From Ardenticatenaceae bacterium (lineage in GTDB: Bacteria; Chloroflexota; Anaerolineae; Promineifilales; Promineifilaceae): a stretch of DNA of 64,000 nucleotides. Positions within the stretch are counted from its first letter, which is position 1. Each line of letters starts with the position of its first letter. Under the pieces are notes generated by a model. The model did no database searches and had not been told where the DNA came from. It saw nothing but the letters and a program-made list of their open reading frames with translations. The DNA lies in contig JACKBR010000007.1 in NCBI GenBank assembly GCA_020634495.1, positions 75,705-139,704 on the forward strand, written 5' to 3'. The position numbers were made by a program, and so were the translations under genes. Positions 13,988 through 36,252 of the stretch are shown in pieces.

Positions 13988-14077
13988 CTTAATACTTCCT
14001 TCTTCTCAAAAGTGTTTGTTTCTATTTGTAAATTAGGTTGTGTTGGCATTTCTATGCAACCGAACTAATGAACAAAA

Positions 14078-14791: not shown

Positions 14792-14812
14792 TTGTTAGCC
14801 TCATACAACTTA

Positions 14813-16189: not shown

Positions 16190-16572
16190 ATTTCCCTCCG
16201 CTCAACGGTTGCCTAAATAGAGAGTGATACCTGTAGCTGTTTTATTACCAATACGTTTCGATATTTTGCAAGAACAAGAAGTGAGAACCGTTGAATCATG
16301 TTTACCCAAAGCGAGGCTGCTCATACTGTAACAGTTTTCTAGAAACTTTCCAAATTAAGCAAACCACAGAAACTAGCTTGAAAAACGAGACGCAATTTCT
16401 CGGTGGTCTGCCAAGTAAAAGCCAAATTTTATGACCTCCTTTTTCGAATATCTTTTTGGCTTTTCCCTTTTTCAACAATTTTTCAATAAACCAGGATTGA
16501 ACTTTCAAGAAGCGTACGGCCGTTTCCATTAAGCTGGTCTCATTGGTTCACAAGATTAGCTGGAGGGCAATG
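16190..16572. other. Divergent intergenic region with candidate operator
   Basis: This A/T-rich gap of ~383 bases separates the ATPase-wHTH gene from the secretion operon and must hold the promoters of both. The only symmetric site I see is TTGAACTTTCAA (16497-16508), 5-bp arms around CT. One ACGGCCGT palindrome follows near 16516. A 75-residue minus-strand frame here shows no coding signs. Confidence 0.4.
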
Positions 16573-16953
16573 ATGAATGAGTTTCCGTTTCAAATCTCAG
16601 TTCGGCCGTTTCACATCAAGCGTCAGGGCATCTGCGGCGTTCGCATCAAAAACCAATGCGCCACCGCCACGACCTTTACCCTTTCTGGCCAGGCCAACGA
16701 TGAACAGATTCAGTTTGAAGCCATGCCGGCCCAAGTCACCATTCCCCAAGGGCAAAAAGGAGCTGTCTGTATACGCGTAAAACGCAAACGGCCGTTCCTT
16801 GGCTTTCGCCGCAAAATCAACTTTACCATCCAGGTGCAATCATCAAATGGCGTCCGGCAAACTGTTCCTGGACGTTTGGAGTACACACCACTCCTGGCAG
16901 TTTGGCAGCTAGCCTTGTTATTTCTAGCCACAGTTGGCGTTTTTCTAATTTAG
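16573..16953 (+). CDS. Small beta-sandwich protein with C-terminal membrane anchor
   Basis: The start is at ATG 16573 (or the ATG at 16570), seven bases after GGAGG; this gives 126 residues. Alternating strand patterns (FPFQISVRPFHIKRQGICGVRIKN, ATTFTLSG, QVTIPQGQKGAVCIRVKRKRP, NFTIQVQSS) look like one Ig-like (CARDB/NEW3-type) fold. One hydrophobic helix (~106-126, LAVWQLALLFLATVGVFLI) ends the chain. It is the first gene of the type VII secretion locus and 9 bases before the next gene. It may be a membrane component of the apparatus; no homologue is recognised. Confidence 0.65.
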   Translation: MNEFPFQISVRPFHIKRQGICGVRIKNQCATATTFTLSGQANDEQIQFEAMPAQVTIPQGQKGAVCIRVKRKRPFLGFRRKINFTIQVQSSNGVRQTVPGRLEYTPLLAVWQLALLFLATVGVFLI

Positions 16954-16962
16954 GAGGGTATT

Positions 16963-17301
16963 GTGACAGCACTAGAGTATGCACGGCTCATTTTGTTTGG
17001 GGGTGGAGCCGTCATCGGGCTGTTCATTTTATTGAAGATTGCGCATTTCATTTTTAGGCAAGTCATTCGCCTGATCAGATGCCTTTTGCGCCTGATTTAC
17101 CGAGGGGTTCCGCACCTGATTGTGGAGGTGCTCGCCGCCTTTCTAGCCTCGTTTATCACCGCCATCATAGCCGCCGTTATTGGTGTGCCTGTAGATGAAT
17201 TGTTGGCCCGTTTTGGCAGTTGGTTCGCCACGCAAGGTTCGGCGTACGTCACGTTTTTATCAGACCTGACAGCCCAAATCGGAACAACTTTAGTTTCATA
17301 A
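16963..17301 (+). CDS. Small polytopic membrane protein of the secretion locus
   Basis: 112 residues from a GTG start with TAGGAGGG upstream. There are two hydrophobic stretches: ~10-45 (LILFGGGAVIGLFILLKIAHFIF) and ~52-78 (VEVLAAFLASFITAIIAAVIGV), with basic residues between them. The C-terminal ~30 residues are amphipathic. Located between the anchored beta-sandwich gene and the WXG100 cluster. No family recognised; an inner-membrane part of the secretion machine is an inference from position only. Confidence 0.6.
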   Translation: MTALEYARLILFGGGAVIGLFILLKIAHFIFRQVIRLIRCLLRLIYRGVPHLIVEVLAAFLASFITAIIAAVIGVPVDELLARFGSWFATQGSAYVTFLSDLTAQIGTTLVS

Positions 17302-17370
17302 TCAACAAAACTCAGCAGGTCTCGCGTAGTACAAGATTTTGATCAGCGTTCACCTGCGTCCCATTTGCAT

Positions 17371-17385
17371 AAGGAGGGCATATGT
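17371..17385 (+). promoter_or_regulatory. Strong Shine-Dalgarno followed by a two-codon ORF (ATG TTG TAA)
   Basis: AAGGAGGGCAT precedes ATG-TTG-TAA, about 65 bases before the first WXG100 gene. It could be a minimal leader peptide or the remnant of a lost gene start. The rest of 17302-17448 shows no other feature. Confidence 0.3.
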
Positions 17386-17448
17386 TGTAACGGAAATCGC
17401 ATCACAAACCTATATTGGAAAAATTTAACAAAAGTGAGGTAATACACA

Positions 17449-17751
17449 ATGGCAGATTTAATCGAAGCCGATTACGGCAAATTGGAACAAGTTCATAAGC
17501 AGTTTAGCCGCCAGGCAGACACCATGAACAAAATGATCAAAGATATTCGCGCTCGCATGGCTCCGCTGCAGGATGGAGGCTGGAAGGGTGACGCCGCCGA
17601 TGCTTTCTTTAGCGAAATGCACGGCGAAGTGCTCCCCGCCTGCCTACGACTGAAGAAAGCGCTGCGTGAAGCAGCGTCTACCACCAAGCGCATTGGCAAA
17701 ACAGTACAAAAAGCAGAACAAGACGCCAAAAGCGCCTTCAAAATTTTCTAA
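17449..17751 (+). CDS. WXG100-family protein (ESAT-6/CFP-10-like), copy 1
   Basis: 100 residues, the canonical length, with the central W45-K46-G47 turn (LQDGGWKGDAADAFF) between two amphipathic helices (about 10-40 and 50-90). These are small helical-hairpin proteins exported as dimers by type VII secretion systems. SD AGTGAGGT upstream; the next WXG-type gene starts 15 bases after the stop. No YxxxD/E export motif is seen near the C-terminus, so a partner subunit may carry it. This is the clearest family member of the four. Confidence 0.9.
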   Translation: MADLIEADYGKLEQVHKQFSRQADTMNKMIKDIRARMAPLQDGGWKGDAADAFFSEMHGEVLPACLRLKKALREAASTTKRIGKTVQKAEQDAKSAFKIF

Positions 17752-17765
17752 AGGAGTAAAGAAAC

Positions 17766-18071
17766 ATGTCTAAGAATGACATCAAAAAGATGAATTACCC
17801 AATGGTAGAGCGCATGGCGCGAACCATGGATCAGAGCGCCAAGCGGCTGGAGAATTGCCTGGGCGACATGAACAAAGTTATTTCAACTTTGGAACAAGGC
17901 GGCTTACGCGGCGACGCAGGCGCAGCCTTTTCTGAGTCGGTTCGCGGGCCACTGAATGCCAGCCTGAAGCGGCTGCAGAACAAGTTTAACGAATTGAACA
18001 AAGATTTACGCAAAGCGGAACAGGATATGAAGCAGGCTGATAAAACGGCCGCTCGTGCCCACCGCAGCTAA
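17766..18071 (+). CDS. WXG100-like protein, copy 2 (W replaced by L)
   Basis: 101 residues with a helix-turn-helix hairpin like copy 1. The turn reads EQGGLRGDAGAAFSE: L47-R48-G49 stands in the place of W-x-G, while the GD.A..AF pattern after it is kept. SD AAAGGAG. It is adjacent to copy 1 and of the same length, so the pair may form the typical heterodimer (inference). The long charged C-terminal helix (ELNKDLRKAEQDMKQADK) is compatible with coiled-coil packing. Confidence 0.82.
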   Translation: MSKNDIKKMNYPMVERMARTMDQSAKRLENCLGDMNKVISTLEQGGLRGDAGAAFSESVRGPLNASLKRLQNKFNELNKDLRKAEQDMKQADKTAARAHRS

Positions 18072-18212
18072 ACATATAGCTGATTTTGAACCTGAGAAAA
18101 ATAAATCGGTAAACCTCTAAAATGCGCCTCAGGTTCATTTAAGCGATTCAGCAGCATATTCAATTACCGATCTATTTTATGAATCGCAATCATCAGCAAA
18201 GGAGATTTCAAA

Positions 18213-18563
18213 ATGGGACTTTTCGATTCAATTAACCCACTGGTAAAGATTGCTAAAAAGGTCGTCAACGGCGTGCGGCAAAGCTTGATGGGGCAAATTA
18301 ATTTGCTGGATACGGCCGTTAAAGCCCCCATCCAGATGATGGTTAAAGAAGTTGTCGGTGGTGTGTGGGTTGGCGACGGGGCCGACGCCTTTGTAGAACA
18401 GTGTACCCGAATGTTCATCCCCCAAACCGACTTCATCACCAACGGAGCGCGCTCCATGCATTCCTGCATCGGCAAAGCGCTGGACATCATGGAAGCCGCT
18501 GACAAAAAGTCGATGAGCTTTGTCAACAACCTCAGCGGCATTTTTGGCGGCATCTACAAATAA
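18213..18563 (+). CDS. WXG100-like protein, copy 3
   Basis: 116 residues. The central motif VGGVWVGDGADAFVEQ has W52-V53-G54 followed by the same GDxADAF pattern as copy 1. The first helix is shifted and starts with MGLFDSINPLVKIAKK. A glycine-rich hydrophobic end (FVNNLSGIFGGIYK) replaces the usual charged tail. SD AAAGGAGAT. The gap 18072-18212 before it holds no gene. Likely exported or structural substrate of the same machine. Confidence 0.82.
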   Translation: MGLFDSINPLVKIAKKVVNGVRQSLMGQINLLDTAVKAPIQMMVKEVVGGVWVGDGADAFVEQCTRMFIPQTDFITNGARSMHSCIGKALDIMEAADKKSMSFVNNLSGIFGGIYK

Positions 18564-18611
18564 CAGAGTCAGCGGCGCTTTTGCCAAAAGTGCGGCTAAA
18601 GGAGCAAACAA

Positions 18612-18911
18612 ATGGCACACAAAGAAATTAAAATGGACGTGCCCAAGGTCAAGAAAATGGGCAAAACGTTTGAAGATATTGGTGAAGTATTGAAAGGGAT
18701 CAGTAAAGTGCTGCAAATTTTGCTGAATACCCTGCGGGCCACAGCCTTTGTCGGCATGTTTGGTGGCTGGGCGCTGCAATCCTACATTGAACAGTACAAG
18801 CCAGTCATTGACCGCCTGGCCAAACAGTCGGAGGAAATTGGTCGAGATTTGGCCGTTTCTGCCAAGGCATACGAACGTGGCGATGCCGTAGGGAGTACTC
18901 GTTTCTACTAA
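18612..18911 (+). CDS. WXG100-like protein, copy 4 (YxxxD tail)
   Basis: 99 residues, with helix-turn-helix shape but a hydrophobic centre (ILLNTLRATAFVGMFGGWALQSYIE) in which the WXG turn is not canonical (W53-A54-L55). Near the C-terminus Y87-E-R-G-D91 fits the YxxxD/E export signal of type VII substrates. SD AAAGGAG. The last of four consecutive small genes; the hydrophobic centre could pass for a membrane segment, so WXG membership is less certain than for copies 1-3. Confidence 0.7.
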   Translation: MAHKEIKMDVPKVKKMGKTFEDIGEVLKGISKVLQILLNTLRATAFVGMFGGWALQSYIEQYKPVIDRLAKQSEEIGRDLAVSAKAYERGDAVGSTRFY

Positions 18912-18914
18912 AAA

Positions 18915-18993
18915 TCTATCCGCAAAAGCCACAGAGGGAAAAGAGTTGAGACCAATCTCAAGAATCTCTGTGGCTAATATTCAGATAGGTATT
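18915..18993 (+). repeat. CACAGAG-type dispersed intergenic repeat (copy A)
   Basis: It runs from TCTATCCGCAAAAGCCACAG to CTCTGTGGCTAATATTCAGA plus TAGGTATT. AGCCACAGAG and CTCTGTGGCT form an inverted repeat. The same element lies in reverse orientation at 56297-56396, with very similar outer ends. The remainder of the gap up to 19161 shows no gene. Confidence 0.8.
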
Positions 18994-19161
18994 AAGCCAA
19001 ATGCAGTTCGCACCATTTGGTAAGCCATAGTCACCGGTCCGTTTATCCAGTTTTTAACCCAACCGAATAGCCACACCCGGGCGTTTTAATTGCTCTTGGC
19101 GCTTCACGCCTGGGTGCTGGCTGCTCATTGCCTGAAATGTAATTAGAAGGAGGTTTAATCC

Positions 19162-21153
19162 ATGCGACGCTCTCATTTTATTTTTATTTGTGCTCTACTG
19201 TTGCTGCTTGGCGTGCCAGTGGCTTTTGCCCAAAACGATGCTGTGACGATTACGGCCGTTCACTCCACCAACTTCCCCACCGTCACCGTCGATTTTATTC
19301 TGGATACGGCCGTTCCCGACCCGCAATCTCCAGCCAGCTACAGCCTCACTGAAGATGGCCAGCCAGTAGACATTCAGTCCATCGAACCGGTTGAGCATCG
19401 CCAGCCGATCTCCCTGCTCATCGTAGTTGACCAGGGGCTTTACTCCGTTAGCCGCTACCGCCAGGATTATGATCTGGTAGAGCTTAAGCAGCTTTTTTAC
19501 ACGCTTGGCGAGGATTTTTTTCAAGAGGGCGATCAGATCGGTATCCTCACCGGTCGCTGGGACGAAGGCACAAACGGCCGTTTTCAAATTCAGCCACACC
19601 TGGAACTTACCAATGATTTTATGGCTTACACCCAGGCCATCGACACACTCGATATCGACTTGACCGCCAACGACATCAGCCTGGACAGCGTGCAGGCCAT
19701 CGAAACACCGCTGCTGCTCGAACCCGCCATCGAGCAAATGAACGGGGAGCCAAATGGCGTCATTCTCTACCTTTCGGCGCTCATTCATGCGCCTAACGAG
19801 CCTGGCCCTACACGTGCTCTTAACGCTGCTGAGCGCCTGGCGGCCGATGCCCAGGCAGCCAATTTGCAGCTTGTGGTTTTCCAGGCCGCAGCCAACACCA
19901 TCGATGATGATATTCGTGCGCCCATGAATAACCTGGCCGGGGAAAATCTTTATATCGAGTTAAAAACCAGTGTAGATAACCTGCGAGAAGTCACAACCGT
20001 TTACCAAGCCCTGTGGCAGTACGAAACCAGCTACACAGCCACCTACCGCAGCCGCAGCGCCAGCAGTGAGCCACGCATCGTCTCGCTGGCCCTGGCCGCA
20101 GCGCCAGACCGGGCCGATGAAGAAACCTACACGGTTACGCTTCAGTCACCTGTTTTGCTGGATGAAGAAGTATCCTGGGCCGAAGACGGCCGTTACCAAC
20201 TCACTGCCACCCTCAACTGGCCGGATTTGCTGCCACGAGAGCTGTCGGCTGTGCAAATCAACAGTCAGACGGTGACCGACTTCACCGTGAGCGAAAGCCA
20301 ACTCACTGCCACCTTCACCGCCAGCACAGACCATTTTGCCCAAATGGCCATCACCGACGAACTGGGGCTGAACAGCAGCAGTGAGCTAACGCTGCCAGAT
20401 CCGCCGAGCATCAGCGCAACGGCCGTTGCCACCACAGAGCCAGAAGAATCGACGACTACCCAGACAGCGCCCGCCGCACCCGGCACCCAACTGCTGCGCT
20501 GGCTGCCGTGGCTGGGTTTGCTCATCGCGCTGGGTTATATCGGCATCTTTCAGCGCCAAAAGCTGCCCCAGGTTGGCCGGCAAGTGCGGCACACCGCCCG
20601 CCGTCTCACCACCATTGTGGCTGGCAATGTCCGCCAACCTGTCATTGCCCATCTGCACATCGCCGCTGCCAGGGAAGATCTGGTAAACGAAACGATTGAT
20701 CTCATTACCGACATCACCACGTTGGGGCGCGATCCGCAGCTCTCTGACATTCAGCTTTATGCCGAAGATGAGCGTAGCTCAATTAGCGGCCAGCACTGCA
20801 CCATCCAGTTTGATCAGGGATGTTTTCACATCACAGATAACGGGTCGGCTAACGGAACGGCCGTTAACGGCAACCTCCTCCCAGCCGACGATCCTTACCC
20901 GCTCAACGACGGTGATGAAATTCAGCTGGGCCACAAAGCGCGGCGTGGTGCCACGCTCCGTTTTACGGTGGCTGAAGCCGTTAAGCGCCAGCAGCGGGCC
21001 ACCATCGCTGATGCCAACTTCCCTGGCAGCGCCCAGGCTGGAACGCCCACCCAAATCGATCTTGAACCAGCGCAAAACAATCTTACCGCCGCCCCCGACC
21101 GGCTGCCCGTGCCGGAAGATGACGACGATACCTGGTGGAAAAAATTGGAGTAA
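19162..21153 (+). CDS. Secreted VWA-like/FHA membrane protein of the secretion locus
   Basis: 663 residues. Signal peptide 1-23 (FIFICALLLLLGVPVAFA). A von Willebrand A-like domain begins near residue 80 (LLIVVDQGLYSVS), but the MIDAS D-x-S-x-S is not kept. A membrane helix (~440-462, WLPWLGLLIALGYIGIF) is followed by a cytoplasmic FHA domain (~518-614: TLGRDPQ, SSISGQHCTIQF, DNGSANGTAVNG, LNDGDEIQLG). The usual SRxH of FHA is SGQH here. The topology puts the VWA fold outside and the phosphothreonine reader inside, next to a kinase and phosphatase. SD AAGGAGG. The stop precedes the kinase ATG by five bases. Confidence 0.88.
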   Translation: MRRSHFIFICALLLLLGVPVAFAQNDAVTITAVHSTNFPTVTVDFILDTAVPDPQSPASYSLTEDGQPVDIQSIEPVEHRQPISLLIVVDQGLYSVSRYRQDYDLVELKQLFYTLGEDFFQEGDQIGILTGRWDEGTNGRFQIQPHLELTNDFMAYTQAIDTLDIDLTANDISLDSVQAIETPLLLEPAIEQMNGEPNGVILYLSALIHAPNEPGPTRALNAAERLAADAQAANLQLVVFQAAANTIDDDIRAPMNNLAGENLYIELKTSVDNLREVTTVYQALWQYETSYTATYRSRSASSEPRIVSLALAAAPDRADEETYTVTLQSPVLLDEEVSWAEDGRYQLTATLNWPDLLPRELSAVQINSQTVTDFTVSESQLTATFTASTDHFAQMAITDELGLNSSSELTLPDPPSISATAVATTEPEESTTTQTAPAAPGTQLLRWLPWLGLLIALGYIGIFQRQKLPQVGRQVRHTARRLTTIVAGNVRQPVIAHLHIAAAREDLVNETIDLITDITTLGRDPQLSDIQLYAEDERSSISGQHCTIQFDQGCFHITDNGSANGTAVNGNLLPADDPYPLNDGDEIQLGHKARRGATLRFTVAEAVKRQQRATIADANFPGSAQAGTPTQIDLEPAQNNLTAAPDRLPVPEDDDDTWWKKLE

Positions 21154-21158
21154 TCATC

Positions 21159-22124
21159 ATGCACTTAGCACCTGGCGACACGATAGGCCCTTACGTTATT
21201 GACCGGCCCCTTTCGCAGGGGGGCATGTCCTACATTTACCTGGCTTCGCCTTGTGAACGGCCGTATTACAAAGTCGTACTCAAGCTCAATGCCACCGAAA
21301 AGAGCACCTTTCAAGATTTGCTGCGGCGTGAAGCAGACCATTTGGCCGCCCTGCGCCATCCCGGCATCGTGCGCATTTACCCGCTGCGCCTGCCCAACGG
21401 TAAGCGCGTTGTCTACCAGGCACGCGCCAAAGATTATCCCAACCGGCCCTGGTATTTTGCTATGGAATATATCGCCGGGGGCGGTTTAGATGCCCATTTG
21501 CTGCCCATTACCCGATTGCCCATCAACTGGCGTATTGAACTGTTTTACCAACTACTGCTGGCCGTGCAATTTATGCACGATCACGGCTATGCCCATTGCG
21601 ACCTCAAGCCAGAAAACATTCTGCTGCGCGAGCGCCCGCGCCTGGACCGCGTGCCGCAGCCGGTGCTCATAGACCTGGGCAGCATTTCCAACATCAATAA
21701 GCGAGACAGGCTGACAAACACCCCCAACTATGCCCCGCCAGAACTCATCCAGGCGGCCAGTGAACCGCAAAACCAAACGCTGCAAGCGCCCGAACTGCTG
21801 CCACCGGGCAAGGGGGACATCTGGGCCTTAGGCGCTATTTTGTACGAGCTGTTGGCGGGCATTCCGCTGGTAAATGACGATGACCCAACGGCCGTTGCCG
21901 CCGCCATTCTAAAAGGGGAATGGGCCTCTATTCGCAGCCAGCAGCCAGATGTCCATGAATCATTAGAAATCATGGTAAGCATGATGCTTCATCGCAATCC
22001 GCATCGTCGCCCAGATATCGCTGAACTGATTGAAGCGATTGAAGAAAAAATCGCCTCTGTAGCTCCACCGCGTATTCCCAGCGACGAACGTGAGCTGCAC
22101 CAGGCAGGAGAACAAGCAAAATGA
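21159..22124 (+). CDS. Soluble eukaryote-like Ser/Thr protein kinase
   Basis: 321 residues from ATG 21159 (SD GGAG; an earlier in-frame GTG at 21135 overlaps the previous gene). PknB-type landmarks: glycine loop LSQGGMSYIY (18-27), VVLKLN (K42), HCDLKPEN (D148, N153), DLG in place of DFG (D172), YAPPEL, GDIWALGAILYELLAG. All catalytic residues are present. There is no membrane segment or sensor domain, unlike PknB. It overlaps the PP2C gene by four bases (ATGA), so kinase and phosphatase are co-translated. Likely targets are the FHA-bearing proteins' partners in this locus (inference). Confidence 0.9.
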   Translation: MHLAPGDTIGPYVIDRPLSQGGMSYIYLASPCERPYYKVVLKLNATEKSTFQDLLRREADHLAALRHPGIVRIYPLRLPNGKRVVYQARAKDYPNRPWYFAMEYIAGGGLDAHLLPITRLPINWRIELFYQLLLAVQFMHDHGYAHCDLKPENILLRERPRLDRVPQPVLIDLGSISNINKRDRLTNTPNYAPPELIQAASEPQNQTLQAPELLPPGKGDIWALGAILYELLAGIPLVNDDDPTAVAAAILKGEWASIRSQQPDVHESLEIMVSMMLHRNPHRRPDIAELIEAIEEKIASVAPPRIPSDERELHQAGEQAK

Positions 22125-23782
22125 CTGCTTTAATTACCGGATTCTTTTTTGATATTGGCAGCCGCGAGATTTATGAAGACCGTCTGGCGGTAACACAGCT
22201 CACCACGCGCAGCGGTTTGGAGCTGACCGTGGCGCTGGTGGCCGACGGCGTTGGCGGGGCCAACCGGGGCGAACGGGCTGCCCAGCTGGCCGTAGACAGG
22301 GTGTTGCATTATTTAGTGGAAGAAGGTTCCAGCCAATCTGTGCCCGAACTGCTTCAGCATGCCTTTATGGCGGCGAACGAAGCGGTTTGCGCCGAGGCTG
22401 TGCAGCTAGACGGCGGTAATACCACTCTGGCTGCGGCCGTTGTGCATAACGGCCGTTTATACATTGCCAACGTGGGTGACAGCCGCATCTATCTTTGCCG
22501 CAACGGCAAGCTAAACCAGCTCACCCTGGATCACACCTTTGCTGAAGTGATGCCCCAACTTGGCAAAATGAGCGCTGCTGCCGCTGCCGCCAATCCCCGC
22601 GCCGATGTGTTGGTGCGCTACGTAGGCAGCGGCCCGCGCTTCGCCGCCGATCTCGGTTTTTACGTAGAAACCAAAAATCCCAAAGTTGCCGAAAAACGCG
22701 GCCGCCAGGGGCTTCTGCTGAAGCCGGGTGACTCCGTGCTGCTTTGCTCTGACGGCCTGGTGAAAACGGCCGTTTCTGGCCAACCATTCACAACCACAGA
22801 AGAAATAATTCGCGTGCTGCAAACTCAAGAAGGAGACAAAGCCGCTCGCAGCCTGGTTTCCTTTGCCCTGGGGCGTAACGTCGATGACAACGTTTCTGTG
22901 GCCCTGCTGCAAACTCCAGACTCCCAACGCCGTCGCCGCGCCAGACGGCCGTATATCCGTGCCTTTTTACTCATCACCATTTTGCTACTGGTTGGATTTC
23001 TAACGTTGTACCAAAACTACCAGCAAGAAATTGCCCTGGCCCAGGCAGCCTTTACCAGCCAACAGGATGACCTTGCCCAAGAAGCGGCTGCCGCTGTGGA
23101 CGCCGTGGCTGCCACTGCCACAGCCGATCTGGTTGCTTTGCAGACGGATGCCGCGGCCACCGCTGCTGCTTTTGCGACCCAACAAGCCGATGCCGCCGCT
23201 ACGGCCGTTGCCTTCCAAACCCGCGCGGCTGCTGAACTCGCCTGCTCGCTTTCCGGCAATTACGACTATCGCATTGAAGAGTTAACGCTCAATCCAGAGC
23301 CTATTTATCGTCATGTTATTGGCAGTGAGCTGCCCGCAGATTTTGCGCTGGCGTTACGCTGGACGCTGACCAACACGGGTAGCTGCCCGCTGCCACCGCC
23401 CTTGCTAGAAAGCTACAGCGATGGCGTTCCTCAGCTTACTGCACAGTGGCAACAGGCAGGGCAACTACTTGATCTGTTGCCTGTAGACGAAACGGCCGTT
23501 CTCCACATCACCATCCCCATCAGCAGCGAACAACAGCTTATGGCTTGGCGTGATTACTTTGCCAGGAGCGATGTTGAATGGTGGCTCACCATCACCCCGG
23601 CGGGCGAGGAAAACCCTATCAACCTGCTGTCGCGCACACCGCTTACCCTGCACGATGGCCAGGCAGCAAGTTGGCTGCTGCTGGTGCAGCCGACGGCCAC
23701 CGCCACACCAACCGTACAAGAAACAGAAACGGCCGTTCCCAGTGAAACAGCGATACCCATTACACCAACAAACAGGCCCTAG
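22121..23782 (+). CDS. PP2C-type phosphatase with membrane helix and extracytoplasmic domain
   Basis: 553 residues. PP2C/PPM metal-binding motifs: VADGVGG (D42), NVGDSRIYL, LCSDGL, and GRNVDDNVSV. A membrane helix lies at ~284-302 (AFLLITILLLVGFLTLY). An Ala-rich coiled coil follows (~305-375), then a beta-rich domain (~380-520) and a Thr/Pro tail. The catalytic part is cytoplasmic; the rest projects outward. It should reverse phosphorylation by the overlapping upstream kinase. The outer beta domain resembles NBR1/CARDB-like Ig folds, a loose assignment. Confidence 0.88.
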   Translation: MTALITGFFFDIGSREIYEDRLAVTQLTTRSGLELTVALVADGVGGANRGERAAQLAVDRVLHYLVEEGSSQSVPELLQHAFMAANEAVCAEAVQLDGGNTTLAAAVVHNGRLYIANVGDSRIYLCRNGKLNQLTLDHTFAEVMPQLGKMSAAAAAANPRADVLVRYVGSGPRFAADLGFYVETKNPKVAEKRGRQGLLLKPGDSVLLCSDGLVKTAVSGQPFTTTEEIIRVLQTQEGDKAARSLVSFALGRNVDDNVSVALLQTPDSQRRRRARRPYIRAFLLITILLLVGFLTLYQNYQQEIALAQAAFTSQQDDLAQEAAAAVDAVAATATADLVALQTDAAATAAAFATQQADAAATAVAFQTRAAAELACSLSGNYDYRIEELTLNPEPIYRHVIGSELPADFALALRWTLTNTGSCPLPPPLLESYSDGVPQLTAQWQQAGQLLDLLPVDETAVLHITIPISSEQQLMAWRDYFARSDVEWWLTITPAGEENPINLLSRTPLTLHDGQAASWLLLVQPTATATPTVQETETAVPSETAIPITPTNRP

Positions 23783-23802
23783 GAAAATTTAGGAGAACTC
23801 AA

Positions 23803-26028: not shown

Positions 26029-26078
26029 GGGTTTGCTCTGGGGTATCTGACCAATTAGAGGGTAAACCCTTAGGGTTT
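26022..26078. repeat. CCCTAAGGG inverted repeat (copy 1)
   Basis: ACCCTAAGGGTTT (26022-26034) and AAACCCTTAGGGT (26064-26076) are perfect 13-base arms; TTT follows in the plus direction. It lies between the VWA-FHA gene and the giant ATPase gene. It may attenuate transcription inside the operon. A closely similar element lies at 41051-41109. Confidence 0.8.
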
Positions 26079-26117
26079 TACCAGAATTACCTAAACAGTT
26101 ATCACAGGAAGATCATT

Positions 26118-29100: not shown

Positions 29101-32100
29101 CGCTGCATCCAGAAGAAGCGTTGCCTGTGGTTTTGCTGGGCATCGACAACTTTGCTGAGTTTATTGAGCTGTTTGGCAACAGCCGCGACGATGTGACCAC
29201 CAATTTAGATCACCTGGTTACTCTGGCCCGCCAATCACGCCCTTATGGGGTGCATCTCATGGTAACTACTCGCCTGCCTGCCGATTTGCCCGGCAAATTG
29301 TCTAACCTCTTTGCTGAGCAGCTCACCCTGCGCCAGGCAGATGCCGCCATCTACCGCGAGATTTTGGGTACGGCCGTTCCTGACATCGAAGACGTAGAAG
29401 GGCGCGGTTTCCTAAAAGAAGGCAATCAGCCGCTGGCCTTCCAGGTGGGGCTGCTGGTGCCGCCACAAGAAAGCGCCAGCGGCGTCAATGCCGATCTGCA
29501 AGCCATTCATCAATTGGCTGAAGCGATGCAGGCTGCCGGGTCGTGGGATGAAACTGGCCCGATGTCGATTGGCGCGCTGCCCAAAACGGTTTCTTATATG
29601 CAGATGGCGGGTTTGGCCCGCCCCCGCGAAGGCGAAGGAGCCGTTCCCCCGCACCAGGAGCTACAGCAGCAAATGGCCCAAAACTGGGCACAAAGCCGCG
29701 ATCCAGAGCAGGCCGATTGGCTCTCGGCTACTTTAGGCATCATGGCCGGGAATCAGCCGCGTACCCTGCATTTTTCCGCCCCGCGAGATGGTGTGCACGG
29801 CATGATTGCAGGCGGCACCGGCTCCGGCAAGTCGGAAATGCTCATGACCCTTATTGTGGACATGGCCTTCAAACACGACCCGTCCATTCTCAACTTTGTC
29901 CTGGTTGATTACAAAGGGGGTGGTGCCTTTAAGCCGTTTGAAAAGCTGCCCCACGTGGTAGACAGCGTGACCAATTTGAACGGAGCGGCCGTTTCGCGCA
30001 TGTTTGTCGCCATCAATGCTGAAATGAAACGCCGCCAGCAGCTCAACGCCGACACGGGCGTCAAAGACATTGTTGATTACCGGCGCAAAGGGTACCACCT
30101 TAGCCAAGAACCGTATCCGCACCTGTTCATCATCATCGATGAATATGCGGAAATGATTGTAGATAAACCAGAGTTTAGCGAGGAGTTGGATCGCATTACC
30201 CGCGTTGGCCGTTCGCTGGGCATCTCGCTCATTCTGGCTTCGCAAAAGCCTGTGGGCGTCAGTGACCAGATGCGGGCCAATATCAAATTTCGCCTTTGCT
30301 TGCGCGTGGAAGGGGTAGACACCAGCCGCGAAATGCTGCGCCGCTCAGACGCTGCCTTTTTGCCCAACGGTATGCCGGGGCGCGGCTATCTGCAAATTGG
30401 CAACGACAATTTGGAGCTGATTCAGGTGGCGTACACGGGGGAAACAGTTTACCCTCGCGAAGGCGTGAGGGCCGTCTCTCCCGAAAATGAACCCACCACA
30501 CTGTATGCCCTGGCTGTAGACACTGCTCACCGGCTGATGGCTGACCAACCCTGGCCACAATGTCCCTGGCCACCCATGCTGCCAGACGGCCGTACGGCCA
30601 CCTTTGGCCTCACCAGCCCGCTCGATCCACACTACATTCCCGCCGGGCAGCAGCCACAGCTGCAAACAAATAACGCATCGGTTCTGATGCCCAACCCAGC
30701 CATTGCCGCCTGGCTGGATGGTCAAACCGGCTGGCCAGGTATCGATTGGGCACGGTTAGCTATGCGGCCTGTTATTGGTTTGGTGGACAATCCCCAACGG
30801 GCCCGCCAATTGCCACTGACGTTGAATTTGGCGCGGGGTCATCTGGCACTGCTAGGCGCGTCTGGCCTGGGCAAAACTACTGCGCTGCGCACCCTGGTTA
30901 CCAGTTTGGCCGCCACCCATTCCCCAGCAGAACTCAACATCATTATTCTGGATTTAGGTGGACGGCAGCTACGGCCGTTGCAAAACTTACCCCATGTTGG
31001 CTCTGTGCTGCTGCCCGATGAAGCAGGCTTTGCTGAACAGGTACGCCAACTGGTGCGCGAGCTGAATCATCTCGTGGAGCAGCGACAGCACAAACTTACT
31101 GAAAGGGGCGCGCCTGATCTGTTCCGCTACAACCAGCAGGCAGATGAACCGTTGCCCGCTGTTCTCATCCTCATCGACAACTACGCTGAATTTCAGGAGC
31201 TGTTTGCTGAAGGTGGTGAAACGGTGGAGCAAATGATGAGCGATCTTCATGCGCTGATCCGGCAGGCCCGCACCTACGGCCTTCATTTTGTCATTACCGC
31301 TTCAGACCCCAGCCACATTCCTGGCAAGCTGCTCAATTTGTTCAGCGAGCGGCTGGTGCTGCGGCTGGGTGGCGACGCCGATTACCAGAGTCTACTGGGG
31401 CAGCGCGTGGCAGAACTACCCGATGTGCCTGGACATGGCTACCTGTTGGTTGAGGATCAGCCATTGGCTTGCCAGGTAGCCCTGCCCCTGCCAGAAACGC
31501 CCGACGCGCCCACTCTCAAAACGCTGCAAGCCGCTCTGCAAGGCGGCCAATGGCAAGGCAACCCGCCGTTGAGCGTGGAGCCGCTGCCTCGCGCCAGTTT
31601 GTACCGTCCGCTACTGGCAGAGGTATTTGGTATGAATGAGGAACGGCCGTTCCTCGAAGAACTTGAACGCATCACCCTTAAAAACTGGGCCAACAGCATC
31701 GACCCAGAGCAGGCCGATTGGTTGACGGCGCTGCTGGGCGTAGCCTCTGGCAACCATCCCCGTAGCCTTCACTTTTCCGCGCCGGCCGACGGCGTGCATG
31801 GTCTGGTGGCTGGCGGCACCGGCTCCGGCAAATCAGAGCTGCTCACCACGCTCATTGCGGGCATGGCTGTGCAGTTTGATCCCAGCGTCCTGAACTTTGT
31901 TCTGGTTGATTACAAAGGGGGCGGTGCGTTCCAGCCGTTTGCCCAATTGCCCCACTGCGTAGACATCATCACCAACCTGAACCAGGCGGCCGTTTCCCGC
32001 ATGTTCACCGCCATCAACGCCGAAGTCAAACGCCGTCAGCAGCTAAACGCCGACACAGGTGTCAAAGACATCGTGGATTATCGCAAACGGGGTTATCACC

Positions 32101-34583
32101 TGAGCAAAGAGCCGTATCCGCATCTGTTCATCATCATCGACGAATACGCTGAGATGATTTCTGATAACCGGGATTATTTGCAGGAATTAGAAAGCATCAC
32201 CCGCGTTGGCCGGTCGCTGGGCATCTCGCTCATTTTGGCTTCGCAGCGCCCCACGGGTGTTACCGACCAGATGCGCTCTAATATCAAGTTCCGCATTTGC
32301 CTGCGTGTGGAAGGCGTAGACGAAAGCCGCGAACTGCTGCGCGTACCGGACGCTGCCTACTTGCCCAACGGTATGCCGGGGCGGGGGTATCTGCAAATTG
32401 GCAACGATGAGCTGCACCTGATGCAGGTGTCTTACACGGGCGACAGCTACCCAGAGGCCCAGCTGCCTGACGACACGGAACCCCCTAAATTGTTTGATCT
32501 AATCGTGCGGCTGGCCGACAAACTGGCACAGCGCCCCGATGCCCCAGAGCGACGCCCCCGCCCCTGGCCCGATTTTTTACCAGAAGCGTTTGGTTTGGCG
32601 GATGAACTAACGGCCGATTATTTGCAGCATGGGGGAACGGCCGTTTCTCTTCCATTCTTTCAATGCAGCCACAATCTCGCTGCCTGGCAGCAAGGTGAAC
32701 AAAAATCGTGGCCACCAACCGATTGGAACGCCAGCGCTTTTTCACCTGTGCTGGGGCTGGTTGATAATCCGTATCAGGCTTGCCAGCACCCCTTGCGGCT
32801 GCACCTGATGCGCGACCACCACCTGCTGTTTGGTGGTTCTGGCTTTGGCAAAACCAGCTTCCTGCGGGCGCTGATGGTCGATTTAGCGGCTAGCTACGCG
32901 CCGGAAGCGCTGCACATTTTTGTGCTGGACCTGGGCGGGCGCAGCTTCGGCAGCCTGCGCCACCTGCCCCATGTGGCCGACGTGATTATGCCCGATGATC
33001 TGGCTTATGAAGAGCGGCTGACGCGCTTGCTGGAGCGGCTCAATCGGGAGCTGCAACTGCGGAAGCAGCTGTTTAGCGAGGCCGATGCTCGTGACCTGAT
33101 TCAGTACAATGCGCAAAATTCGGAACGGCCGTTACCTCTCCAACTCATCCTCATCGACAACTTTGCCGAGCTAAAAGAAAACTTCGAGATGTTGATTGAT
33201 GAGCAACTTGTACCGCTGCTGCGCCAGGGACGGCCGTACGGCTTTTCATTTGTCATCACCGCCAATGCGCCTGGGGCAATTCCAGGCAAGCTGCACAATT
33301 TGCTGGGGCAGCGGCTTACCTTTACCCTGGCCGACGTGGGGCATTATTTGGACATTGTGGGGCGTGGCGCGCCACCGCTGGAGCCAGTGCCTGGTCGCGG
33401 ATTAGTGAAGGTGGGGAAACGGCCGTTAACCTTCCAGACAGCCTTGCCCTTTAGCGATTTGTCGCTGGGGGAAGGGGCACAACTGCGGAGGCTGGCCGAA
33501 ACATTAAAGACAAGCTGGACAGGCGCAACGCCACAGCCAACCCACATATTGCCCCGCGAGGTCTCGCTGCAAGCTGTGCTGGCCAAAATGCCAGAATCAG
33601 CGGCTGGCGATGTGCGCTTTGTTCTGGGGCTGGATAACGATTTGCAACCCGCCATAGGCAACCTGGAACGGTTTGGCCCACATTTTGGCATCGTTGGACC
33701 ACCGCTTTCTGGCAAAACAACGGCGCTAACCAACATTGCGCTGTCGCTGGCGGCTCGTCATTCACCGGAAGCGTTAGCCCTGATCTTCATCGATCTCAAC
33801 CGCAAGTTTGTGCAGAGCGGCGGTGATAAATCGCTGGCCGATCTGCCGCACCGGGTGGCTGCCCTGACAGATTTGGCCCAACTGCCTCAATTGGTCCAGC
33901 GCGTGACTGGCTATTGCCAACGCCTGGCTGCTGGAGAAAACGGCCGTCGCTTGTTCATCCTCATCGAAAATTTTGACGACCTGTGTGAAGAGATTGAAAA
34001 CGACCGGGAAGCGGAAGATGCGCTTGGTGAACTGGCGGTGCTGGCTGGACGGCATGGCGCTGACGGGCTGCACATTGTGCTGGCTGGGGCGCTGGAAGCT
34101 GCCCATCCCCTGAAGAAGCGGGTGTTGGCCAGCGGCTACGGGCTGGGGCTGCGGGATGCCGATTCTTTAACCACGCTGCGAGCCTACACGCGCGGTTTTG
34201 CCGATTTGCCAGCGGGGCGGGGCCATGTTGTAAGTGGTGGCCTGCCCACCAAAGTGCAGATTGCCCAGCCGTATCTTTTGCCACACGGCCGTACCGCTGG
34301 TTTGGCTGCATGGGTGGGGCAAATTCAAAGCCAGTTTGAAGCGTTTGGGCCGGAAGATTGGCTGGCTGGCGAGGCAAACGTTGATGATGGGGAAACGGCC
34401 GTTGCCAGCAGCGGAACTGCTGCCATTGACCAGGAAATTGGCACCCAGGCGTTGGCGCTGCTCAAAACAGCCATCGCTTACAAAAGTGAAGCAGACGGTT
34501 TGCCGTTAGAGAGCATTGGTCTGGATTTAGACACGTTGCCAGACGCAGACATCTTGCGCATGGCTGAAACCCATTTTGAATGA
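26118..34583 (+). CDS. Giant FtsK/SpoIIIE-type secretion ATPase (EccC/EssC-like), seven P-loop modules
   Basis: 2821 residues from ATG 26118 (SD AGGAAG). Two membrane helices (~38-82) precede a long linker and seven RecA-like modules. P-loops: GSTGSGKS 538, GMSGWGKT 902, GGTGSGKS 1232, GASGLGKT 1580, GGTGSGKS 1899, GGSGFGKT 2239, GPPLSGKT 2527. Modules 1, 3 and 5 are canonical (LVDYKGGGAF, FIIIDE[FY]AEM with catalytic Asp-Glu). Modules 2, 4 and 6 have Asp-Asn (IDNFAEF, IDNYAEF, IDNFAEL) and module 7 Glu-Asn (IENFDDL), so they probably bind but do not hydrolyse ATP. Known EccC has three or four modules. It powers export of WXG100 substrates through the membrane. The three canonical/degenerate pairs are alike in sequence but clearly diverged. 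Confidence 0.95.
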   Translation: MNQNRTYIERPPRIQPELPQEIIDIPNPPDQRDGGIGELMHIALPLLMIVGYIMVAFMGDGNSNPLLIIPMALSIVASTIFSWISYREEKQKRAAETAVYQEQLNDMRRDMTTAHEAQRHFYRHNAPDAAQTLQIVLDTVQPPNGRTSETRAGTRLWERRPDDDDFAILRLGIGTRPSTVLYNAPQADGLPTQLSQEAQRLADDSQFVSQIPITVPLRRLTEKEEDTAVSPNTDDLPVPPTIHSLGISGDPAAVYPFANTLISQYTTLHSPHDARLFILGSHSQPWEWLLPLPHAEADDQGDALCFLDLLPETAVTTHDDEIGLPRYLEQLRKRLTARRLRLKDENKEEQDDPTRPFLLLVVDLLNLAENAPLSNIEAEATIAILQQAGAELGAALIFLVPQRSQIPADCTAVIEIENSDGNAFFRYAETGVNTLRYVGIAEMASDLRQLHAFSSAMSRWDVRKSSSGNLTKVVPFLEMLDESNLHTLRESARQNWARSTQPDRVQPLRVRVGYMAGNKPRALVFSAKRDGVHGMVAGSTGSGKSELLISMIAALAVNYDPTMLNFVLVDYKGGGAFQEFAQLPHCVDVITNLQKAGVSRMFTAVNAEMKRRQQLNAATDTKDILEYHRKGYHLTHAPYPYLFIIIDEFAEMIAGNNQFKNELDMITRLGRAQGISLLLAAQRPTGITDQMRANIKFRICLRVETPGESREMLRRTDAAYLPGNIPGRGYLQVGNEDIDLIQVAYAGDSYRSPTAVDEPDIIWPQRQPELLNNTAQEPEPPKLFQAVVSMVQALAKEADVAPQHAPWPDALIQPQTLTEPLPSTEYLAQSALLTVADESDSTNGAILNPWLRGWLNGRSQWPMLNWRDRVMRPVVGLVDNPYEAQQLPLIVNLRRGHGVLFGMSGWGKTVFMRSLVASLAAIHPPDALHIYLLDLGGRNLAALAKLPQVGAVIMPDEEGFEERVAYLLRELTHLVESRKLLLNQHGVEDVYQLNALHPEEALPVVLLGIDNFAEFIELFGNSRDDVTTNLDHLVTLARQSRPYGVHLMVTTRLPADLPGKLSNLFAEQLTLRQADAAIYREILGTAVPDIEDVEGRGFLKEGNQPLAFQVGLLVPPQESASGVNADLQAIHQLAEAMQAAGSWDETGPMSIGALPKTVSYMQMAGLARPREGEGAVPPHQELQQQMAQNWAQSRDPEQADWLSATLGIMAGNQPRTLHFSAPRDGVHGMIAGGTGSGKSEMLMTLIVDMAFKHDPSILNFVLVDYKGGGAFKPFEKLPHVVDSVTNLNGAAVSRMFVAINAEMKRRQQLNADTGVKDIVDYRRKGYHLSQEPYPHLFIIIDEYAEMIVDKPEFSEELDRITRVGRSLGISLILASQKPVGVSDQMRANIKFRLCLRVEGVDTSREMLRRSDAAFLPNGMPGRGYLQIGNDNLELIQVAYTGETVYPREGVRAVSPENEPTTLYALAVDTAHRLMADQPWPQCPWPPMLPDGRTATFGLTSPLDPHYIPAGQQPQLQTNNASVLMPNPAIAAWLDGQTGWPGIDWARLAMRPVIGLVDNPQRARQLPLTLNLARGHLALLGASGLGKTTALRTLVTSLAATHSPAELNIIILDLGGRQLRPLQNLPHVGSVLLPDEAGFAEQVRQLVRELNHLVEQRQHKLTERGAPDLFRYNQQADEPLPAVLILIDNYAEFQELFAEGGETVEQMMSDLHALIRQARTYGLHFVITASDPSHIPGKLLNLFSERLVLRLGGDADYQSLLGQRVAELPDVPGHGYLLVEDQPLACQVALPLPETPDAPTLKTLQAALQGGQWQGNPPLSVEPLPRASLYRPLLAEVFGMNEERPFLEELERITLKNWANSIDPEQADWLTALLGVASGNHPRSLHFSAPADGVHGLVAGGTGSGKSELLTTLIAGMAVQFDPSVLNFVLVDYKGGGAFQPFAQLPHCVDIITNLNQAAVSRMFTAINAEVKRRQQLNADTGVKDIVDYRKRGYHLSKEPYPHLFIIIDEYAEMISDNRDYLQELESITRVGRSLGISLILASQRPTGVTDQMRSNIKFRICLRVEGVDESRELLRVPDAAYLPNGMPGRGYLQIGNDELHLMQVSYTGDSYPEAQLPDDTEPPKLFDLIVRLADKLAQRPDAPERRPRPWPDFLPEAFGLADELTADYLQHGGTAVSLPFFQCSHNLAAWQQGEQKSWPPTDWNASAFSPVLGLVDNPYQACQHPLRLHLMRDHHLLFGGSGFGKTSFLRALMVDLAASYAPEALHIFVLDLGGRSFGSLRHLPHVADVIMPDDLAYEERLTRLLERLNRELQLRKQLFSEADARDLIQYNAQNSERPLPLQLILIDNFAELKENFEMLIDEQLVPLLRQGRPYGFSFVITANAPGAIPGKLHNLLGQRLTFTLADVGHYLDIVGRGAPPLEPVPGRGLVKVGKRPLTFQTALPFSDLSLGEGAQLRRLAETLKTSWTGATPQPTHILPREVSLQAVLAKMPESAAGDVRFVLGLDNDLQPAIGNLERFGPHFGIVGPPLSGKTTALTNIALSLAARHSPEALALIFIDLNRKFVQSGGDKSLADLPHRVAALTDLAQLPQLVQRVTGYCQRLAAGENGRRLFILIENFDDLCEEIENDREAEDALGELAVLAGRHGADGLHIVLAGALEAAHPLKKRVLASGYGLGLRDADSLTTLRAYTRGFADLPAGRGHVVSGGLPTKVQIAQPYLLPHGRTAGLAAWVGQIQSQFEAFGPEDWLAGEANVDDGETAVASSGTAAIDQEIGTQALALLKTAIAYKSEADGLPLESIGLDLDTLPDADILRMAETHFE

Positions 34584-34603
34584 CGAATACTGGAGTTAGA
34601 AAA

Positions 34604-35269
34604 ATGAAACGAATAACATTTGAGATTGATTTTTTAGGTGTCAGCATGGAGGTGGCCCAAGTGCGTTCAGAAGTAACCATCGGCCAGCTCGTTCAGGAAA
34701 TTTTGGTGGAATTTGCCCTGGAACATCCGTTTTTGAACCAGCACCAGCCGCAAAATTATGTGCTGCGAACGGCCGTTGACAGTATTGACCTCCCGCCAGA
34801 TCAGGCGATTCACCAGATTGGCAAACGAAGCAAGCTGTTTTTTCGGGAAAAAGAGGTAATTGTGCCAGAAACGGCCGTGTCCATCGATCAGCCTTTTTAC
34901 CTGCGCTATCGGTCTCATGTTTTCAAAATTGGCTGGACACCTGCCCTCATCGGCAGGCCCATCCCCGGCGATACGGATAATGCCCGGCTGGCTGTCGATT
35001 TGGAACCGTTTAGCCTGGCGGTTTCGCGGCGGCAGGCAGAGATTGTGTGGGCAGACGGCCGTTTTGCCATCCGCGGCCTGAGTGAGAACCCGATGTTGAT
35101 CAATGGCGTTTTGCTTCCCTTTGGGCGGGACTCAATAGATTCGCTAACTCAACTGCAAAATGGTGACACGATTTTGCTCCAGCGCAGTGGCATTGCCCTG
35201 ACTTGTTTGCAACCAGACTGTTTGTCCCACGGTCGGGCCGCACAGCCTGCCACTGGAGGTGCCTCATGA
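34604..35269 (+). CDS. Ubiquitin-like (EsaB/EccD N-terminal-like) plus FHA domain protein
   Basis: 221 residues from ATG 34604 (SD TGGAG; an in-frame ATG at 34580 is less likely). Residues 1-85 look like a beta-grasp fold: MKRITFEIDF, VTIGQLVQEILVEFAL, YVLRTAVDSIDLPPDQAIHQIG, SKLFF, as in YukD/EsaB and the EccD N-terminus. Residues ~105-210 form an FHA-like domain (IGRPIPGD, LAVSRRQAEIVWADGRFAIRGL, NGVLLPFG, LQNGDTILLQ). No membrane helix. It starts just after the ATPase stop and overlaps the next gene by four bases. It probably docks on the ATPase or membrane complex and couples it to the kinase-phosphatase pair. Confidence 0.78.
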   Translation: MKRITFEIDFLGVSMEVAQVRSEVTIGQLVQEILVEFALEHPFLNQHQPQNYVLRTAVDSIDLPPDQAIHQIGKRSKLFFREKEVIVPETAVSIDQPFYLRYRSHVFKIGWTPALIGRPIPGDTDNARLAVDLEPFSLAVSRRQAEIVWADGRFAIRGLSENPMLINGVLLPFGRDSIDSLTQLQNGDTILLQRSGIALTCLQPDCLSHGRAAQPATGGAS

Positions 35270-36252
35270 AACAATGTTCATTTTGTGCCCACACACGTGC
35301 AGATGACAATTTATGGTGCCAGCAATCTATTTGCCCGGCAGAAAACACGGTTAAGCGCCTGCGCCCTGGTGATTTTGTTGGTGAATTGGCCATTGAAAAA
35401 TGGGTGGCCACGTTGCCCACAGCCACTGTTTACCGGGCAATGCGCGGCAAGGAGCCGGTGCTGTTGAAGGTGGCCCATCCCGGCTTTGAAGAAAAACTCA
35501 AACGGGAAGCACGGTTTTTGCAAACGCACAGTCATCCTGGGCTTCCCCAGCTTTTAGCGGCTCATTCGGATACGGCCGTTGCCGAGCATCCGTACGGCCG
35601 TATCACTATTCATGGCCAGCTTTTCACCTATTTGTTGCTGGCCGACAGTGCGGGACGCACGTTAGAAGAATGGCTCACCCGCAACCCGCAGCCCTGGCAA
35701 AAGCACGTTGGTTGGATTATGAGTACACTCACGGACACTGTTGCCTTTTATCATGATTGCGGTTTTTATCATCTGACCCTGTCTTCTAGCATCGTGCTGC
35801 TCCGCTTTGATAATCAGCAAATCCCTCGCCCCATTTTGTTGGATCTTGGTTTATGTGCCACTTTTGAAGATATTGGCCGTTATTGGCAGCCAGAAGGTGC
35901 CGATCCGCGTTATTTGGCACCAGAACTGCGCTTACGCCAGCCAATCAGCCAACAAACCGATCTATACGGGCTGGGCATGATATTGCAGGTCATGCTGACT
36001 GGATTAACTAACGCTTTGGCTATTCCCAGGGATGATTTGAGAGCGCTTCCGGAATTAGCACAATGGGCGACAAGGGTAACAATGGCGGAACGGCCGTTAA
36101 ATTGCCTGGAGTTTGCCGATCAGCTGTTGGCCAGCACACCCCATTTGCCTTCGGAGGTCAGGAAGCCATCAATACAAGACTATTTGCCTAGGATATTGGC
36201 TGTGTTCATTCTGCTAACGGCTGCGTTTTTGTTATTGGCGCTATTGGCCTGA
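35266..36252 (+). CDS. Zinc-ribbon pseudokinase with C-terminal membrane anchor (EssB-like)
   Basis: 328 residues from ATG 35266 (SD GGAGG), overlapping the previous gene as ATGA. An N-terminal zinc knuckle (C4, C7, C18, C23) precedes a kinase fold with VLLKVA (K68). The catalytic loop reads FYHLTLSSSIVL: the HRD Asp is Thr171 and the loop Asn is Ser. LDLG (D193) and a degenerate YLAPEL remain. A C-terminal membrane helix (~306-327, ILAVFILLTAAFLLLALLA) ends the chain. EssB/YukC of Firmicute type VII systems is likewise a pseudokinase with a membrane helix, though it continues outside. It is the last gene of the secretion operon. The EssB link is structural analogy, not shown homology. Confidence 0.8.
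   Translation: MKQCSFCAHTRADDNLWCQQSICPAENTVKRLRPGDFVGELAIEKWVATLPTATVYRAMRGKEPVLLKVAHPGFEEKLKREARFLQTHSHPGLPQLLAAHSDTAVAEHPYGRITIHGQLFTYLLLADSAGRTLEEWLTRNPQPWQKHVGWIMSTLTDTVAFYHDCGFYHLTLSSSIVLLRFDNQQIPRPILLDLGLCATFEDIGRYWQPEGADPRYLAPELRLRQPISQQTDLYGLGMILQVMLTGLTNALAIPRDDLRALPELAQWATRVTMAERPLNCLEFADQLLASTPHLPSEVRKPSIQDYLPRILAVFILLTAAFLLLALLA

Follow-up and report, generated by a model that had tools for sequence, protein, structure and literature searches.

In the papers on type VII secretion systems (T7SSs) consulted here, the EccC/EssC ATPase carries its D1, D2 and D3 domains once each. Four C-terminal NTPase domains are given for each T7SS ATPase in PMC11217815, a count taken here, in the light of the cited part of PMC11154593, to include the domain of unknown function (DUF). 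Types T7SSc to T7SSj were described by Garrett et al. (2024) in Bacillota and Actinomycetota, often with kinases, phosphatases, von Willebrand factor A (vWA or VWA) proteins or forkhead-associated (FHA) proteins. In the sections of that paper used here, T7SSc of Bacillota combines WXG100, a ubiquitin-like (UbL) protein and an FHA-free ATPase with a membrane kinase, a PPM phosphatase and a vWA protein (PMC11217815); the string 'Chloroflex' is absent from its main text. Judging from the excerpts available, WXG100 proteins of Chloroflexota (PMC3935865, PMC10765036) and WXG-calpains of Herpetosiphon (PMC4631099) have already been published, although T7SSs have received little study in this group of bacteria. 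The locus analysed here lies in a 64-kb stretch (the window) of contig JACKBR010000007.1 from an Ardenticatenaceae bacterium and encodes an EccC/EssC-type ATPase with seven P-loop domains. The best explanation, to which we assign a probability of approximately 0.82, is a Chloroflexota-specific T7SS subtype in which the predicted membrane ATPase would drive export with three D1-D2 modules per chain and one D3.

The genes from the first WXG gene to the pseudokinase gene span 17449–36252 (all locus coordinates are window positions). All genes of the locus are on the plus strand, with ATGA overlaps at three junctions (22121–22124, 34580–34583 and 35266–35269), in agreement with an earlier interpretation of this DNA from its letters alone (the sequence-only reading). 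The locus has every component listed above for T7SSc, including an ATPase free of N-terminal FHA. Unlike T7SSc, its ATPase has seven P-loops, its UbL domain is fused to FHA (UbL-FHA), the kinase adjoining the ATPase is dead, and there are four WXG families rather than one; VWA and FHA domains are found together on a membrane protein, whereas the T7SSc protein TscE is cytoplasmic, and the phylum is Chloroflexota. The system was set apart from T7SSc–j by their published descriptions. Since kinases, phosphatases and FHA proteins occur in the published T7SSc–j loci, phospho-wiring as such has precedents. Neither the consulted T7SSc–j description nor the open PMC literature searched mentions a tripled motor, a UbL-FHA fusion or a WXG quartet, relative to which these three features appear new; neither a seven-domain EccC/EssC nor a Chloroflexota T7SS locus was found in titles and abstracts of the latter. 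The claim that no system with such a gene set had been described is thus only partly right: apart from these three features, T7SSc already combines the parts listed above.

With T7SSb, the locus shares the set of ATPase, UbL, FHA and membrane pseudokinase. It differs in that FHA is on the UbL protein here and on the ATPase in T7SSb, and in that the modelled pseudokinase adopts a complete PknB-like fold. EssB and EsaA of T7SSb were found in none of 12 related Chloroflexota genomes, while both models matched in the control, B. subtilis. With T7SSa (ESX), the locus has in common that its EccC-type ATPase lacks FHA and that there are several WXG100 proteins, one of them with a YxxxD/E motif. Unlike T7SSa, there was no EccB or EccD in the same 12 genomes, with matches for both models in a Streptomyces record. 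Mycosin was the best NCBIfam model for the three subtilases of the window (46535–56290, approximately 10 kb downstream, accompanied by a TPR protein), but all were below its cut-off of 278.75, with 133, 108 and 125 bits. The EccE model had no match in the 12 genomes, nor in the control. The absence of EccB, EccD, EssB and EsaA bears out the earlier proposal that a T7SS different from types a and b is present here, beyond the two phyla classically known for such systems. The three-domain EssC proteins of other Chloroflexota (Ktedonobacterales and others) are from the same phylum and ATPase superfamily, but have at most three P-loops by pattern and belong to other clades in the tree.

The ATPase gene (26118–34583, plus strand) encodes 2,821 aa, with transmembrane (TM) helices predicted near residues 39 and 66. 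Its likely start is the ATG at 26118, which follows an AGGA, rather than 25917. The protein scored 1507.7 bits with the NCBIfam EssC model (TIGR03928; cut-off 778.4) and 1035.7 bits with EccCa (TIGR03924; cut-off 509.15). Pfam detected seven FtsK/SpoIIIE stretches, and our own hidden Markov models (HMMs) of D1, D2 and D3 read them in the order D1-D2-D1-D2-D1-D2-D3, or (D1-D2)x3-D3, an architecture overlooked by the sequence-only reading. The N-terminal TM part and D3 are single, and the D1-D2 unit is tripled into modules a (27519–29600; Walker A at residues 538 and 902), b (29601–31601; residues 1232 and 1580) and c (31602–33515; residues 1899 and 2239), followed by D3 (33516–34298, end approximate; residue 2527). 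The module borders were set by the cutting rule of the present analysis. The three modules are mutually 49–55% identical. No FHA was found at the N-terminus among the best 25 of 35 Pfam families, and the first TM helix, at residue 39, leaves no space for one. The canonical protein has three P-loop domains and this one seven, yet each domain type is present, and on its sequence the ATPase is a variant of the EccC/EssC family. Its membership of the FtsK/SpoIIIE superfamily would also suit a DNA pump, such as FtsK or a conjugation ATPase, misread as a T7SS. The scores for FtsK (147 bits; cut-off 1566) and TraB (109 bits; cut-off 800) were, however, far below their cut-offs, the EssC and EccC models were above theirs, and the WXG quartet adjoins. 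A DNA pump is refuted at the sequence level by these model scores and is very improbable; the earlier assignment to EccC/EssC stands. Two palindromic stretches (CCCTAAGGG and CCCTTAGGG) were observed at 26024–26080, in the gap directly 5' of the ATPase gene.

The (D1-D2)x3-D3 order was present in 120 of 120 homologues, the best 120 of 442 in a ranking that favours the seven-domain form, and in 33 proteins of our locus set, which comprises the window and 67 relatives (68 loci, numbered with L). At least eight of these 33, which include the window protein and one cut at its start (L001), share an identical 1000-aa stretch with one of the 120, so the two sets overlap. The order D1-D2-D3 was read in 19 proteins, of which 18 are from Chloroflexota loci and one is the Streptomyces reference (L068). 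The remaining 14 proteins are the Enterococcus reference L069, 12 at or within 64 bases of a contig end, and L037. An assembly or annotation artefact might be suspected from the five-P-loop form of L037, which may stem from collapsed repeats. The recurrence of the same domain order in the homologues and locus proteins, together with one 2,958-aa frame with seven matches in the complete genome of Herpetosiphon aurantiacus, refutes this explanation, whose probability is close to nil. By pattern counts in 153 seven-domain proteins, Walker A (GxxxxGKS/T) is present in D1a, D1b and D1c of 152, 153 and 153 proteins, and hhhDE in the same numbers. In D2 and D3, DN or EN is found in 140–149 and hhhDE in 1–10 of the 153. 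The genome of Oscillochloris fontis (L007) has, besides its seven-domain frame, a second EccC frame of three-domain size, broken by one TAA (G002:C51:78140-81706).

Two arrangements of such a chain in the motor can be envisaged. The first is an ordinary motor of six equal chains, in which the extra modules would stack as additional rings, so that the cytosolic barrel would be longer and the stoichiometry unchanged. It is in line with the description of EccC/EssC as hexamers in the cited part of PMC11154593 and with the single N-terminal TM part and D3, but barrel length alone fails to explain the recurrent count of three modules; we give it an even chance. The second is a motor rebuilt twice as a three-in-one chain, in which two chains would close a pseudo-hexameric ring with position-specialised subunits, and the order of the three D2 pockets that bind WXG would be fixed within one chain. 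This arrangement is doubtful and we consider it rather improbable.

The origin of the repeats was studied in a tree of 62 D1-D2 modules from 18 seven-domain and 8 three-domain proteins. In this tree, 42 modules lay on one side of a branch with support of 100 (clade A), and the 12 modules of L027, L031, L035 and L038 (clade B) were on another branch, also with support of 100. Copies within a clade are therefore closer to one another than to the like-named modules across the clade divide. Approximately unbiased (AU) tests with 36 modules from 16 of these proteins rejected the groupings a+a, b+b, c+c and b-plus-c (p 3e-4 to 5e-60). In a tree of the N-terminus through D2, clade A joined the three-domain proteins (100) and clade B was outside them (100). 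The tree of the N-terminus only was less firm and had long branches (89 for clade A with four three-domain rows, 46 for clade B itself). The near-copies L015, L033 and L036 were dropped from the N-terminal tree, and L089 was without anchor in the N-terminus-through-D2 tree. The best fit suggested by these sequences is two separate triplications of the D1-D2 module in Chloroflexota. A single ancestral triplication with later gene conversion within proteins would leave a trace such as the pairing of modules b and c of L035 (96), and would produce the same AU rejections of like-named modules across clades. Against it, the unrepeated N-terminal part, in trees partly including D1a, places clade A with the three-domain proteins and clade B apart, strongly in one tree and more weakly for the N-terminus alone. 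We regard this single origin as unlikely, and two triplications as the preferred history.

The ATPase is widespread in the phylum. The EssC model matched in 241 of 251 Chloroflexota genomes, mostly weakly (FtsK), and at E 1e-50 or better in 52, at least nine of which have frames of 2,874–2,972 aa. The titles of the 67 relative loci name Chloroflexota groups except for L015 (Melainabacteria) and L016 ('bacterium'). The locus of L015, titled Candidatus Melainabacteria, has the layout and lengths of that of L004 (Chloroflexi 54-19), and L015 is probably misbinned. The window pairs with L003 (100, N-terminal tree), a Promineifilum, which we take to be a member of the Chloroflexota. Seven- and three-domain Chloroflexota ATPases of the locus set formed one clade (14 rows, support of 100 in the Shimodaira–Hasegawa-like approximate likelihood ratio test, SH-aLRT). 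Outside it were EccCa-named actinobacterial proteins, FHA-bearing EccC, Enterococcus EssC and other Chloroflexota EccC. In plasmids, 817 records matched the ATPase, all below 60% identity; the 20 places listed were each shorter than 4 kb, the size of a three-domain protein.

Upstream of the ATPase gene lie four WXG100-type genes, as the sequence-only reading had stated. With Pfam PF06013, the first two passed the cut-off (family A, 17449–17751, E 4.6e-13; family B, 17766–18071, E 1.8e-12), the fourth was below it (family D, 18612–18911, E 1e-4) and the third was weak (family C, a longer protein, 18213–18563, E 0.13). The profile check thus upheld two genes outright. All four nevertheless belong to conserved families: when family HMMs were made with the window proteins excluded, each window protein scored best with that of its own family (A 3e-40, B 6.6e-32, C 2.1e-39, D 1.9e-40; E-values computed for a set of four sequences). 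These four separate WXG-like families occurred in fixed order in 42 of 68 loci, a count that overlooks over-long open reading frames (ORFs) such as that in L046. The quartet adjoins a complete seven-domain ATPase in 25 loci, a complete three-domain ATPase in 12 and a partial one in 5. WxG was conserved in families A (41/42) and C (42/42), and was found in 1/42 of B and 0/42 of D. A C-terminal YxxxD/E is the export signal of T7SSa; in the last 30 residues it was present in 32/42 of family D, and in 3, 2 and 1 members of A, B and C. Family D has a hydrophobic hinge (ATAFVGxxGG) in place of WxG, which may form a membrane hairpin or a partner surface. In several relatives, the core is adjoined by an additional WXG-A protein that ends in a long glycine-rich tail (e.g., L002 19473–20636, L014 19694–20908); none was found in the window.

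Downstream, the ATPase gene overlaps with the UbL-FHA gene (34580–35269; FHA E 1.1e-5). The UbL part of its AlphaFold2 (AF2) model (predicted local distance difference test, pLDDT, 91.3) has the strand and helix order of ubiquitin, and the fold search retrieved the archaeal ubiquitin 6fno (TMt 0.72, rank 50). YukD was not among the fold matches listed, which were filled with FHA structures. In viral contigs, 14 pattern matches included no relative of the UbL protein. The last gene of the run (35266–36252) encodes a zinc-ribbon-like N-terminus, a pseudokinase (Pkinase E 1.1e-11) and a C-terminal TM helix, with the catalytic Asp lost in 48/48 pseudokinases. In its AF2 model (pLDDT 90.4), EssB was not among the fold relatives in the best 50 rows of each search, where other kinases were found, and the EssB sequence family was absent among its Pfam and NCBIfam matches. 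The earlier term 'EssB-like' is therefore apt for a membrane pseudokinase adjoining the ATPase and not for its sequence family.

The middle of the run encodes further signalling proteins. V1 (19162–21153) and V2 (23803–26028) each have a signal peptide or anchor, an ectodomain, a TM helix and FHA (E 6.4e-18 and 5.8e-15), and V2 a VWA domain (E 1.1e-8). Between them are a Ser/Thr protein kinase (21159–22124, ORF opening at GTG 21135; Pkinase E 1e-29) and a PP2C phosphatase with one TM helix (22121–23782; PP2C_2 E 1.7e-16; Stp1 model E 4.6e-41, below its cut-off), which overlap at 22121–22124 as previously reported. Three window proteins thus carry FHA domains (19162–21153, 23803–26028 and 34580–35269). 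Among 51 long membrane FHA ORFs, 39 had a hydrophobic N-terminus, 48 a middle TM helix and 37 the FHA pattern after it. The phosphothreonine-binding FHA residues G, R, S, R and N were kept in 56, 56, 55, 55 and 53 of 56.

Gene sets were counted in 40 well-flanked loci, in which a complete ATPase gene is preceded by 5 kb and followed by 2 kb of sequence; the flanks end at 10 kb, hence the counts are lower bounds. The 23 such loci of clade A had the quartet in 22, the pseudokinase in 23, UbL-FHA in 22, a membrane FHA/VWA gene in at least 19, a further kinase in at least 13 and PP2C in at least 9. The corresponding numbers for the 13 loci of the three-domain type were 12, 12, 13, 13, at least 8 and at least 3. 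All four clade-B loci (L027, L031, L035 and L038) had the pseudokinase and UbL-FHA, and no further kinase or PP2C was found in their flanks. The counts point to ATPase, UbL-FHA and pseudokinase as the shared core; the quartet accompanies every group except clade B, and the presence of active kinase and phosphatase is variable. Only UbL-FHA and the catalytically dead kinase accompany nearly every such ATPase. The gene-neighbourhood survey called for earlier has thereby found the quartet order in 42 of 68 loci and a near-universal UbL-FHA and pseudokinase.

The sequence-only reading had suggested that reversible Thr phosphorylation gates export. The parts are present and the FHA phosphothreonine residues are kept, and the presence of active kinase and phosphatase varies among loci; phospho-gating was inferred, not shown. 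Kinase, phosphatase and membrane FHA genes might instead be neighbours with a job of their own, such as cell-envelope sensing, without any gating of export. Such a separate job would fit the patchy PP2C (9/23) and further kinases (13/23) of clade A, and the lack of both in the four clade-B loci, where these counts are lower bounds. It is harder to reconcile with the position of the set inside the operon-like run of the window and with membrane FHA or VWA genes in 19/23 clade-A and 13/13 three-domain loci; genes may be hidden beyond the 10-kb flanks. We consider it possible, though the less probable view.

Several results weigh against the T7SS subtype as set out above. The ectodomain of V1 has no detectable VWA domain: Pfam gave none at E 1, and a VWA HMM from 36 relatives, with the window proteins excluded, scored 1.5 bits for V1 versus 163 for V2, so that of the two VWA-FHA proteins claimed earlier only V2 is supported. 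For the UbL protein, the YukD profile gave no match (Pfam at E 1, NCBIfam at E 0.1). In clade B, the flanks of 4/4 well-flanked loci lacked the WXG quartet and a membrane FHA gene. L037 of clade B (1437–8033; 2,198 aa) is a complete-looking frame with five P-loops, which may be a true two-module form or the product of repeats collapsed in assembly. Finally, the window yielded no candidate effector fused to a WXG domain.

For the preferred subtype, we hypothesize the following mechanism. The ATPase would be anchored by its two N-terminal helices, and the three D1 domains per chain would hydrolyse ATP, each followed by a D2, with one shared D3; by analogy to EccC/EssC, WXG C-termini would bind D2. 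The WXG100 quartet would provide carrier or targeting subunits, with YxxxD/E of family D presumably used as the export signal, as in T7SSa. UbL-FHA would most likely dock on the ATPase via UbL, in the way that the UbL domain of EccD contacts the first nucleotide-binding domain of EccC in ESX-5 (PMC11217815, cited part), and would offer its FHA to the membrane pseudokinase or a phosphorylated partner. Contact of FHA with the pseudokinase is suggested by S. aureus, in which EssC-FHA2 is required for binding EssB, according to the excerpt of PMC9436818. The active kinase, phosphatase and membrane FHA proteins would most likely tune assembly in some lineages, outside the core.

The cargo may be indicated by relatives. 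Of the 19 WXG100 matches in H. aurantiacus, 15 lie in open frames (342–459 aa), and one of these frames has an internal stop. The many Herpetosiphon WXG fusions are dispersed over the genome and have toxin-like or enzymatic C-termini (L025 20200–23544; L070–L082). When 16 fused proteins were compared with Pfam, 7 had a C-terminal domain above the cut-off (three calpain, and Ntox44, glutamine deamidase, VgrG3-like and PGAP1-like) and 9 had none. The title of the Herpetosiphon genome paper (PMC3368417) describes the organism as predatory, and the WXG100-toxin-like fusions suggest antagonism or predation. By this analogy, the system is most likely used to deliver toxic or digestive enzymes to other cells; for the window, where no WXG fusion was found, such a role is inferred from kin. 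A family of approximately 265 aa (18 ORFs in 13 loci, near-copy loci uncounted; e.g., L002 20693–21487, L008 21297–22085, L013 21185–21982) is located near WXG-fused genes. Three members scanned had no Pfam match; an immunity protein or chaperone is possible.

Two small membrane genes precede the quartet, encoding a protein that has a single TM helix at its C-terminus and may be Ig-like, judging from weak sub-cut-off Pfam matches (16543–16953), and a protein with hydrophobic stretches (16963–17301). No relative of this pair (16543–17301) was found among the other 67 loci, and both appear to be window-specific accessories. Further upstream, on the minus strand (8632–16189), are genes for a TCAD9/EAD7 protein, a PtuB-like HNH protein (below cut-off), a kinase-like 819-aa protein and an nSTAND-wHTH protein. 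For four of the five genes there, the other loci contained no relative, and for the fifth there were only kinase-level matches; the region is perhaps a conflict or defence neighbourhood.

The tripling of D1-D2 across Chloroflexota, whether it arose twice or was homogenised by gene conversion, amounts to a natural experiment that bears on how many active sites a T7SS motor needs and how many chains build it. If the two-chain arrangement were true, the ring of a secretion motor would no longer consist of six equal parts. The transfer of FHA from the ATPase to the UbL protein and the four WXG100 families in one order may help to separate core from accessory functions of these systems.

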